Below are positions 1-54,605 of a stretch of DNA of 64,000 bases, one piece after another; the stretch's first letter is position 1; each line of letters opens with the position of its first letter. Origin of the DNA: Ferribacterium limneticum (lineage in GTDB: Bacteria; Pseudomonadota; Gammaproteobacteria; Burkholderiales; Rhodocyclaceae); assembly GCF_020510585.1 (NCBI RefSeq), contig NZ_CP075190.1:1178501-1242500 (forward strand), given 5' to 3'. The translations under genes and the position numbers were made by a program. Under the pieces are notes generated by a model, which was given only the letters and a program-made list of their open reading frames with translations, was not told the origin of the DNA and ran no database searches.

Positions 1-29
1 CGGTTTTGGCGATTTTTCCGGTTGACCGT
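1..29 (-). repeat. 34-bp dispersed repeat, copy 1 (cut by window edge)
   Basis: Reads on the minus strand as ACGGTCAACCGG, an A/T tract and GCCAAAA, then reaches the window edge. It belongs to the 15-copy family described in the findings. Confidence 0.85.
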
Positions 30-87
30 AGCAGCATGGCAGCAACGGGTAGCAGTGGTTTCGAGCGCGAGAGAATGCGTGTGCCGA

Positions 88-107
88 ATCCCCGCTGACG
101 CGGGGAT
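88..107. terminator. Hairpin downstream of the sigma-54 activator
   Basis: Perfect 8-bp stem ATCCCCGC / GCGGGGAT with a TGAC loop, just past the stop codon of the minus-strand activator gene. There is no convincing T-run on the minus strand, so it may be a weak terminator or an mRNA-stabilising hairpin. Confidence 0.45.
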
Positions 108-121
108 GGCCAATTTCGGCC

Positions 122-52227: not shown

Positions 52228-52485
52228 TCAGGCGGCCGCCGGCGATTTTTCGACCCAGATGTGGCGGGCGACGGCGTGTTCCAGCGCCAGTTCCACCTCG
52301 TCGGCGAGGATGACGGTCATCGGCCGCTGCTGCAGCACCCGGATCGGCCGATTTTCCGCCAGCCCATAAGCGGTCAGTTGCTCGCGCTGGAGCGGGTCGA
52401 TTTCGTCGCCCAGCGCGGCGAGGCGGACTTCGGTGCCGGGCGGGATGAAGGCGAGGGGGAGGCGGACTTCGTGGGCGGGGCTCAT
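52228..52485 (-). CDS. feoA: FeoA, ferrous iron transport accessory protein
   Basis: An 85-residue SH3-like protein (LAFIPPGTEVRLAALGDE ... GLAENRPIRVLQQRPMTVILADEVELALEHAVARHIWV). It regulates or assembles the FeoB channel. It overlaps the feoB stop by 4 nt (ATGA); the gene order is feoB then feoA, the reverse of E. coli. No feoC is visible. Confidence 0.88.
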   Translation of the reverse strand: MSPAHEVRLPLAFIPPGTEVRLAALGDEIDPLQREQLTAYGLAENRPIRVLQQRPMTVILADEVELALEHAVARHIWVEKSPAAA

Positions 52486-54455
52486 GACCAGAGGGCGCGG
52501 AGGAGGATGTTGAACAGGCCACCGACGAAGAAGGCGAAGGGGACAATGACGGCGACCATGCCGAGGGCGACCTTGGCGCCTTGTTCCTTGACCATCATCA
52601 TGAGGCTGGCGAAGCAGGGGATGAACAGGGTGATGGTGATCATGCCGACCACCGCCTGAATCGGGCTCAGGCTGTGCGCCATGGCGAACAGGCCGGTGGC
52701 GCCGAAGTCGCGGCGCAGGAAGCCCATGACGAAGGCGGCCGAGGCTTCCTTGGGCAGGCCGAGCCAGCCCGAGACGAGCGGTTCGCCGGCTTCGATGATG
52801 GCCGGCAGAGCGCCACTCTTGTCGAGCGCAAACATGATGAAGGTACCGAGCAAAAAGAGCGGGATGACTTCGATGAGGTACCACTTGAGCCGGCCGCCGG
52901 TTTTCTTGAAGACATTGGCAAAAATCGGCAGGCGCATTGGCGGCAGTTCGGTGACCAGCGGGATGCGCCGGCCGGGAATCAACTTGGCGGCGAGGAAGCC
53001 GGAGAGCAGGAGGATGCCGACCATGGCTAGCGCCCAGATGACGACGGCGGTAAATGACACGCCACCGAGCATGCCGAGGACGACGCCGAGTTGCGCCGAG
53101 CAGGGGATGGCCAGGGCGAGCAGGAAGATGGTGATCAGCCGTTCGCGCCGGCTGTGCAGGATGCGCGTAGTCAGCGTTGCCATCGTTACGCAGCCGAGGC
53201 CGAGAACCATCGGCAGCACGGCGCGGCCGTTGAGGCCGATCAGTGAAAACAGCCGGTTGGCGATGACGGTCAGGCGCGGCAGGTAGCCGGAGTCTTCGAG
53301 CACGCCGAAGGCGAAAAAGAAGGTGGTGACGATGGGCAGGATCAGCGCCAGCGCGTAGGTCATGCCCATGGTCCACAGGCCGTACTGGCCGACCAGCAAG
53401 TCCTGCAGCCAACCGGGACCGACCAACGCGGTGACGAGATGGGTGAAGGCCGGGTTGAGGATGCCTTCGAACAGATCCTTTTCCATCAGGCCGACCAGCA
53501 CGCTGGCACCGAAGACGCCGACGAACTGATAGACGGCGTAGAGCACGCCGAGCAGGATGGGGACGCCCCAGACCGGATGGACGACGTACTGGCCGAGGCG
53601 TTGCGAGAGCAGCGGGCTGCTCTTGACGGCGCGCTGGATGACGCTGGTGGCCAGCGCATCGGCCGCTTCGGTGCGTTCGCGGGCGAGCAGGGCGGGGAGA
53701 TCACCGTCGGCATGGTCGATTGCGTTTTTGCGCAAAATTTCCAGTTGAGCGCGCCCCGAAGGAAGTCCCCCTGGGGGATGGGATTCGCTGGCGCGCTCGA
53801 TCAGCCAGTCGGCAACGACCGAATCGCCGCCGAGGTAAAGAATCGCCAACCCGCGCGCCGCCAGTTGCGGGTGTGGGGCGAGGCGGGTGATGGCGGCGGC
53901 CATGGCGGCAATATCAGCCTCGATTTCTGGGTCGTAGCGCAGCAGCGCTTCGGCGTGCTGGGCGTGGCCGAGGCCATGGGTCAGTTCGCCGATGCCTTCG
54001 CCGCCAGTCGCGACGGTGGCCAGGACGGGGATGCCGAGTTCTTCGGAGAGCGCCGGGATGTCCACCATGACGCCGCGCGCCGCCGCCTCGTCGTGCATGT
54101 TGAGGGCAAGCACCATCGGCACGCCGAGTTCGGCCAGCAGGGCGGTCAGCGTCAGCGTGCGGCGCAGGTTCTTGGCGTCACCGACCTGCACGAGGCAGCG
54201 CGAGGATTCGTTGAGCAGGGCGCGCATGGTCGCCCGTTCGTCATCGCTGCGCGAGGGCAGGGCGAGTACGCCGGGGGTGTCGAGGAGCATCGCTTCGCGG
54301 TCGAAACGGGCACTAGCGCGAGTGACTTCGACGGTGGTGCCGGGGTAGTTCGAAACGTTGACGTAAGCGCCGGTCAGGCGATGAAAGAGGACGGATTTGC
54401 CGACGTTGGGGTGGCCGACGAGCAGGATGGCGTTGGCGGCGGAAGAGGTGGTCAC
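52482..54455 (-). CDS. feoB: FeoB, ferrous iron transporter
   Basis: A 657-residue membrane GTPase. The N-terminal G domain has G1 GHPNVGKS (14-21), G3 DTPG and G4 NMHD, followed by the GDI-like helices. The membrane part contains two gate (nucleoside-recognition) domains with about eight or more helices. It imports Fe(II) across the inner membrane under low oxygen or iron limitation. It is shorter than E. coli FeoB (about 773), mainly between G domain and membrane. G1 has His in place of the commoner Asn. Confidence 0.95.
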   Translation of the reverse strand: MTTSSAANAILLVGHPNVGKSVLFHRLTGAYVNVSNYPGTTVEVTRASARFDREAMLLDTPGVLALPSRSDDERATMRALLNESSRCLVQVGDAKNLRRTLTLTALLAELGVPMVLALNMHDEAAARGVMVDIPALSEELGIPVLATVATGGEGIGELTHGLGHAQHAEALLRYDPEIEADIAAMAAAITRLAPHPQLAARGLAILYLGGDSVVADWLIERASESHPPGGLPSGRAQLEILRKNAIDHADGDLPALLARERTEAADALATSVIQRAVKSSPLLSQRLGQYVVHPVWGVPILLGVLYAVYQFVGVFGASVLVGLMEKDLFEGILNPAFTHLVTALVGPGWLQDLLVGQYGLWTMGMTYALALILPIVTTFFFAFGVLEDSGYLPRLTVIANRLFSLIGLNGRAVLPMVLGLGCVTMATLTTRILHSRRERLITIFLLALAIPCSAQLGVVLGMLGGVSFTAVVIWALAMVGILLLSGFLAAKLIPGRRIPLVTELPPMRLPIFANVFKKTGGRLKWYLIEVIPLFLLGTFIMFALDKSGALPAIIEAGEPLVSGWLGLPKEASAAFVMGFLRRDFGATGLFAMAHSLSPIQAVVGMITITLFIPCFASLMMMVKEQGAKVALGMVAVIVPFAFFVGGLFNILLRALWS

Positions 54456-54571
54456 GGTTATTGGATTTCTGGTGTTGCCAAATGCCCGGCGCTTGCCGGG
54501 GAAACCGTCACTCTACGCCGTTTTGAAATGGGTTTTGCTGATCTGGGGCAAGTTTTGGCCGGGTGATCGCC

Positions 54572-54605
54572 ACGGTCAACCGGAAATTTCGAGCAAAAAT
54601 CAAAT
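54572..54605 (+). repeat. 34-bp dispersed repeat, copy 15
   Basis: ACGGTCAACCGG, AAATTT, then CGAGCAAAAATCAAAT. It lies between the feoB start and the bfd stop, both on the minus strand. Confidence 0.9.

Follow-up and report, generated by a model that had tools for sequence, protein, structure and literature searches.

The 64,000-nucleotide stretch of the Ferribacterium limneticum chromosome analyzed here (the window; G000:C1:1178501-1242500, where G000 is the complete source genome of 4,419,140 bp and the other G-numbers are handles of compared genomes) carries a dispersed repeat of about 40 nt that is most probably a DNA-uptake signal. Judged from its sequence, the repeat would be of the same kind as the uptake signal sequences (USS) and DNA uptake sequences (DUS) of other bacteria, here in the GTDB genus to which Azonexus, Dechloromonas and Ferribacterium belong, and we put the probability of this reading at about 0.75. 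The repeat is taken for an uptake signal because its properties are those described for the uptake signals of Pasteurellaceae. An initial annotation of the window had listed 15 copies of a 34-nt unit, ten on the plus and five on the minus strand; all of them are present, including the four with G at position 7 (5172, 20317, 38612 and 38781).

Abundance and anatomy of the repeat

The exact 12-mer core, ACGGTCRACCGG, occurs 495 times in G000 (242 + 253), and its reversed control word 1 + 1 times, so the family is not confined to the window. The lack of copies after 54.6 kb noted in the initial annotation does not mark its end either, the next exact core being found at G000 1242931, 431 bp past the end of the window. 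A 40-column matrix derived from 80 strict sites detects, at a threshold of at least 12 bits, 127 sites in 664 kb sampled from G000 and 130 in 684 kb after one stretch was added, which extrapolates to ~840 signal copies per genome. In the same 664 kb the column-reversed matrix gives no site at any threshold shown, even 0 bits, and the signal scores lie far apart from the background scores. In the window, 16 sites reach 12 bits, namely 14 of the copies listed earlier and two weak extra ones, the edge-cut copy at position 1 having been left out of matrix scoring. Allowing up to two mismatches, ACGGTCRACCGG has 42 matches in the window, compared to 13.8 expected by shuffling (largest shuffle 26). 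The perfect 12-mer ACGGTCAACCGG is found 73 times and its one-mismatch forms 53 times in the 684-kb sample, with 0 and 11 for the control word. A short word is thus heavily over-represented across G000 in both orientations, as is characteristic of USS and DUS. Counts on the two chromosome halves, 43 plus/48 minus and 23 plus/16 minus, reveal no evident strand bias, taking the terminus to lie opposite dnaA.

In G230, comEC contains a recent low-GC insert of 34 kb from which the signal is absent; the insert has 0 sites, compared to 15 in the surrounding 54 kb (Poisson P 8e-5). Three 20-kb stretches of G000 are also without signal (L034, L035 and L043, at 0.76, 0.98 and 2.74 Mb). Their GC contents of 0.55, 0.41 and 0.58 are below the 0.61 of the window, and they are possibly acquired islands.

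The matrix from the strict sites corresponds to the consensus RTTNCC-ACGGTCRACCGG-RAAWWW-NGSCC-AAAWTT-GAAAT, with ~51 bits of conserved sequence. In this long form both A/T tracts are clear, the first base of the core is more often A than G, and the core holds the near-palindrome CGGTYRACCG. The fixed length of 34 nt given in the initial annotation is only partly right, since bases 5' of the 34 nt also belong to the unit (T at -3 in 75 of the 80 strict sites), which is therefore ~40 nt long; moreover, the form found more widely in the genus consists of a 9-bp core and a downstream A/T tract. Likewise, the stretches described earlier as tolerating any A or T are indeed A/T-rich, but they are not free in sequence. 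Tract 1 (positions 14-18) and tract 2 (positions 24-28) are both AnTm runs that avoid the step TpA. Among all-A/T first tracts TpA is found in 14 of 113, where column shuffles expect 60.0 (sd 3.7), and among all-A/T second tracts in 2 of 105, where 30.6 (sd 3.1) are expected; roughly every second A/T 5-mer of the same sample contains it. Such avoidance suggests the rigid, narrow-groove structure of A-tracts.

Dialects and losses across the genus

Of the 76 genomes of the genus, 11 carry the long form, ACGGTCRACCGGRAW, in 102 to 466 copies, and the other 65 have 0 to 43. A dnaA-gyrB tree was built for 33 genomes, ten of them with the long form; these ten group in a single clade together with G218 and G264, which lack it. 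The strict 34-mer was found in at least 120 stretches among named genomes; the matches listed are from metagenome-assembled genomes titled Azonexus, Dechloromonas, Azonexaceae or Rhodocyclaceae, or titled by class or phylum only. Carriage by phages was considered and rejected, as the strict 34-column pattern, the only one searched there, has 0 exact matches in viral contigs.

A shorter word reaches further. RCGGTCRACC is 2.5- to 9.3-fold over its control in 40 of the 76 genomes and 0.4- to 1.6-fold in the remaining 36. In samples of 100 to 220 kb per genome, five enriched genomes have 46 to 64 copies of RCGGTCRAC per 100 kb, chance background included, and five non-enriched ones have 7 to 17. 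The short dialect is this 9-mer with an A/T tract at +25..28. These four positions are all A/T in 0.52-0.64 of sites in G147, G201, G202 and G204. At control words the fraction is 0-0.08, and the same word in the five non-enriched genomes has 0-0.12. Among 199 genomes of the family, the 194 from other genera have the 12-mer of the G000 dialect in background numbers (0 to 7 copies), and no out-of-genus genome among 274 of the class comes near the enriched counts for RCGGTCRACC (largest 180, smallest enriched 338). It is noted that a few distant genomes have high ratios to the reversed control at low counts, for example 7- to 13-fold for RCGGTCRACC in G528 (92 to 10), G425 (124 to 18) and G482 (67 to 5).

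The enriched relatives carry CGGTCRAC at many of the long-form places of G000 (G202, 10 of 13; G204, 6 of 9; G147, 2 of 2), and the sites are therefore old, the place being kept while the dialect changes. In the non-enriched relatives the word is rare or missing at these places (G218, 0 of 13; G112, 0 of 11; G203, 2 of 10; G250, 1 of 10); the sites therefore vanish there. The best explanation of the repeat would be an uptake signal in one more bacterial family, split into dialects and lost in some lineages.

A different function has to be considered here, that of a genome-wide binding array for a nucleoid or segregation protein, in which a dimer would read the palindromic CGGTYRACCG and the A-tracts would add minor-groove contacts or bending. 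The palindromic core, the phased A-tracts, the conservation of both, the even chromosomal spread and the intergenic bias would all suit such an array. However, there is no evident strand or replichore pattern, and the ~51 conserved bits are far above the ~13 bits that, by our own arithmetic, are needed to mark ~840 places. In addition, 36 of the 76 genomes of the genus manage without the signal. Furthermore, the dialect changes while the places stay, and the palindrome of the core is not kept in the short dialects. We regard a nucleoid or segregation array as unlikely. The initial annotation had named nucleoid, segregation, recombination and uptake functions side by side, and among these options an uptake signal fits best.

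Origin by substitution and placement of the copies

The way in which the copies arose was examined by a length test, in which 46 G000 copies in 220 kb were compared to the orthologous places in G218, G112, G203, G250 and G202. In 42 of the 60 resulting comparisons the length is exactly equal, and in none is there a gap of 34-40 bp at the orthologous place, that is, no empty site of the kind left by a miniature inverted-repeat transposable element (MITE) or an insertion sequence (IS). The orthologous place still scores at least 12 bits in only two comparisons, both with G112; what is aligned there is unremarkable coding or intergenic DNA in which the differences are scattered. Within a gene for a heavy-metal P-type ATPase, the copy at 47758-47797 is translated in frame as DSTVNRKKAANFK, and 20 homologues of the ATPase align without a gap through the motif codons, including that of Dechloromonas sp. 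HYN0024, which lacks the word there. The equal lengths, the absence of 34-40-bp gaps and the gapless ATPase codons indicate therefore that most copies were written by substitution. The exception is 3 of 130 sampled sites, which ride in a dispersed palindrome of ~570 bp.

The copies are also conserved in a structured manner. At 44 orthologous sites, G000 and G210 differ by 2.7% in the core, 5.3% in tract 1, 3.8% in tract 2 and 6.4% in the last five bases. The linker differs by 13.2% and the two flanks by 9.9% and 11.8%. The value for the core is slightly lowered by the picking of sites by G000 score. The core and the A-tracts are conserved, and the linker is free.

These results bear directly on a dispersed repeat spread by copying, whether a repetitive extragenic palindromic (REP) element, a MITE or an IS end. 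High copy number and a strong consensus speak for copying, as does the one window copy that sits in the dispersed inverted-repeat element. REP elements are about 35 nt long, mostly extragenic, clade-specific and present in hundreds of copies, and the signal resembles them in each of these respects. It differs in having no REP-type stem-loop, in the 56 of 130 sites that lie in predicted genes and in its origin by substitution, and G000 has no match to the Y1 (RAYT-type) transposase PF01797. A REP, MITE or IS end was rejected on the length test and the missing Y1 transposase. Together with in-frame copies inside conserved genes without gaps, and substitutions within copies that respect the A/T tracts and leave the linker free, they make spread by copying very improbable. 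The judgment of the initial annotation that the repeat is a protein-binding or structural site and not a decayed transposon is upheld by the absence of gaps and of a Y1 transposase and by the genome-wide occurrence of the motif. One of its 15 copies, that at 51912, sits in the center of the inverted-repeat element.

According to a home-made gene finder, the signal occurs in coding as well as intergenic DNA. The in-gene fractions in four short-dialect genomes are 22/38, 22/33, 52/70 and 42/57; an earlier strict set of 68 G000 sites comprised 49 intergenic and 19 genic ones. Of the 56 in-gene copies, 38 are on the strand of the gene; an orientation bias of uptake sequences within reading frames is described in the part of PMC2346458 cited here. 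A regulatory, terminator or RNA element, for which the intergenic bias and the many copies directly past stop codons could be adduced, is the least probable explanation of all, given the lack of orientation preference at the 29 intergenic sites between tandem genes (16 opposite, 13 same), the in-gene copies on both strands, the hundreds of copies, inverted pairs at 2 of 130 sites, which dispose of terminator pairs, and 0 matches to Rfam models at gathering thresholds in the window, which dispose of a known RNA element.

In the window, intergenic copies on the plus strand are located at 5166..5205 (53.3 bits), 11098..11137 (56.4 bits), 14616..14655 (53.5 bits), 21338..21377 (49.4 bits), 25386..25425 (45.2 bits, intergenic per the home-made gene finder), 38606..38645 (48.4 bits), 41064..41103 (36.2 bits, with a degenerate tail) and 54566..54605 (50.0 bits). 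Those on the minus strand are at 8443..8482 (55.8 bits, with a GCGGTCAACCGG core) and 20317..20356 (51.3 bits). The edge-cut copy is at 1..35 (minus strand, core 18-29). At 28401..28440 (minus strand, 61.9 bits) a copy lies where the 5' end of a histidine-kinase gene is predicted, the true start of the gene possibly being downstream, and at 38775..38814 (plus strand, 50.2 bits) another lies at the upstream edge of a TonB-dependent receptor gene. The ATPase copy at 47758..47797 (plus strand, 50.9 bits) is within the gene at 46348-48510. Two weak copies in predicted genes are at 51402..51441 (plus strand, 12.9 bits) and 53719..53758 (minus strand, 15.7 bits). The remaining copy, at 51911..51950 (minus strand, 46.1 bits), occupies the center of the inverted-repeat element.

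This element, at 51645..52210, is a giant imperfect palindrome of 566 bp. The ~570-bp palindrome has an RNA fold of -399 kcal/mol (z -22), and 22 were found in the DNA examined, dispersed in the genus (among them window 51645-52210, L036 9545-10116, L176 17543-18117, and others in L186, L198, L200, L283 and L285). In stretches not chosen for the motif, the window included, the center holds the dialect of the host in G000 (3 of 3), G210 (1 of 1) and G202 (2 of 2), and is without the core in the non-enriched G250 (0 of 2). A second associated element is the 18-bp GTTTACTACGTGAAACGT, which we take to be reminiscent of parS. It sits exactly at the boundary of the core and the first A-tract in some long signals, for example in L031 (G000:C1:110715), L032, L046 and L331, and was found between these two parts in 14 of 14 contexts, one of them with a degenerate core. 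Ten of the 76 genus genomes have matches, with between 1 and 9 copies per genome, and its absence shows as a clean 18-bp gap in five alignments, which cover two loci. GTTTACTACGTGAAACGT may be a miniature insert that targets the signal.

Proposed uptake and comparison with known signals

For an uptake signal, the following mechanism can be proposed. During natural transformation the core (A/G)CGGTC(A/G)AC would be bound by a receptor on the cell surface, probably one of the type IV minor pilins, and the A-tracts, which are rigid, narrow-grooved and spaced by one helical turn, would help the duplex to bend or kink at the secretin. Uptake and recombination would favor DNA bearing the word over other DNA. 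Through point mutation and recombination, this bias could gradually write and keep the word at many neutral or tolerant places in the genome. The dialect would differ by lineage, with the long 40-nt form in the G000 clade and shorter forms elsewhere, and lineages losing the specificity would let the word erode.

The search for candidate genes covered ComEC and the ComP_DUS and GspH minor-pilin families. The ComP_DUS family (PF16732) was considered as the receptor, since its presence in 70 of the 76 genus genomes looked striking, but 86 of 114 class genomes also pass the cut-off. Because the family is widespread in the class and the G000 protein belongs to the usual minor-pilin operon, this presence is no evidence for a receptor. 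That operon, pilE-GspH-PilW-PilY1, lies at 2316-9393 of stretch L296 (G000 about 3108316-3115393) and adjoins ispH, an FKBP gene and a class I tRNA-synthetase gene. The ComP_DUS match scores in the long-signal clade form a high group and a low group. The GspH/FimT family was rejected as the determinant for want of any association with enrichment. Loss of ComEC as the cause of signal loss was likewise rejected, ComEC being present in 51 of 51 good genus genomes and its disruptions having no clean association with the signal: comEC is clearly disrupted in the non-enriched G206, G218 and G250 and also in the enriched G230, and its match is broken or split in the enriched G209. In two of these species comEC is split by an insert of ~33 kb (G230:C33:109525-144033 and G250:C1:2218607-2251879). 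In two genomes without signal it is apparently frameshifted (G218:C1:1959178-1959913) or truncated (G206:C8:1085724-1086371).

Several observations weigh against an uptake signal. The competence genes do not track it, ComEC being found in enriched and non-enriched genomes alike, and neither ComP_DUS nor the GspH family (69 of 76 genomes) separates enriched from other genomes. The density of the long form, ~1 per 5.3 kb, is below the near 1 per kb of USS and DUS, a density that is typical of uptake signals and not strictly defining. For the 9-mer CGGTCAACC, perfect copies (104) are outnumbered by single-mismatch ones (341) in the 684-kb sample. The sites are biased toward intergenic DNA, with 43% in genes where 76% of the sample is coding sequence, and only 25 of the 87 best sites are in genes. 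The rarity of inverted pairs is also unexpected, such pairs being common in USS and DUS terminators. Positions -5..0, although part of the consensus, diverge by 17.1% between G000 and G210, more than the flanks. Finally, the second tract is weak in the enriched G232 (0.33), and the first tract of the short dialects, at 0.53-0.58, is hardly stronger than the 0.29-0.58 of non-enriched genomes.

If the repeat is an uptake signal, it would represent a further case of self-specific uptake, this time among environmental bacteria that can often be cultivated and whose sequenced species divide into 40 with enrichment and 36 without. It would then become testable whether A-tracts are a mechanical requirement of uptake, how dialects switch while sites stay put, and which gene accounts for the presence or absence of the signal in a genome; genetic tools for these bacteria could also be developed by this route. 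In the parts of PMC7811141, PMC3630211 and PMC13020248 cited here, self-specific DNA uptake is described only in Pasteurellaceae and Neisseriaceae, and the last of these, a 2026 terminator survey of thousands of genomes, names uptake signals in these two families. Our literature search, whose scope did not include subscription papers and preprints, found no report of the present signal.

The DUS of Neisseriaceae are described as present thousands of times, within genes and between them, with clade dialects and some members without a dialect (PMC3630211, in part). The signal here shares the coding and intergenic copies, the dialects by clade, the members without dialect and a betaproteobacterial host. 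However, the DUS is a 10-12-mer (GCCGTCTGAA) without A/T tracts, according to the part of PMC1626085 cited, and its word is unrelated.

The likeness to the USS of Pasteurellaceae is closer. In the sections of PMC1626085 cited here, USS arise by mutation and not by insertion, and have a strong consensus. Their core is followed on the 3' side by an AnTn segment and, ~12 bp further along, by a second A/T segment. A decayed lineage is described as well, and so are two dialects that share the core GCGGT, the Hin type AAGTGCGGT and the Apl type ACAAGCGGT(C). Portions of two further sources mention narrow, rigid A-tracts (PMC7811141) and dialects with the inner core GCGG (PMC12616744). The core GCGGTC of the Apl word is also present in the signal here, whose long form, like the USS, has A/T tracts of AnTn form 3' of the core, about one helical turn apart. 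The third and last segment of the Apl word, AAAATTTTGCAAAT, can be compared to AAAAWTTGAAAT here, the Apl word continuing ACAAGCGGTC. On the other hand, the signal here belongs to another family and class, its core runs on into (A/G)AC(CGG), its tracts are a few bases further from the core, and its long form is sparser and more intergenic. It is quite unlikely that the resemblance goes beyond chance convergence, in the sense that receptor and word were shared by transfer or deep descent between these freshwater denitrifiers and Pasteurellaceae, as one code over two classes that drifted into dialects within each. Beyond the words themselves, the two systems have in common an origin by mutation, genic and intergenic placement, dialects by subclade and decayed lineages.

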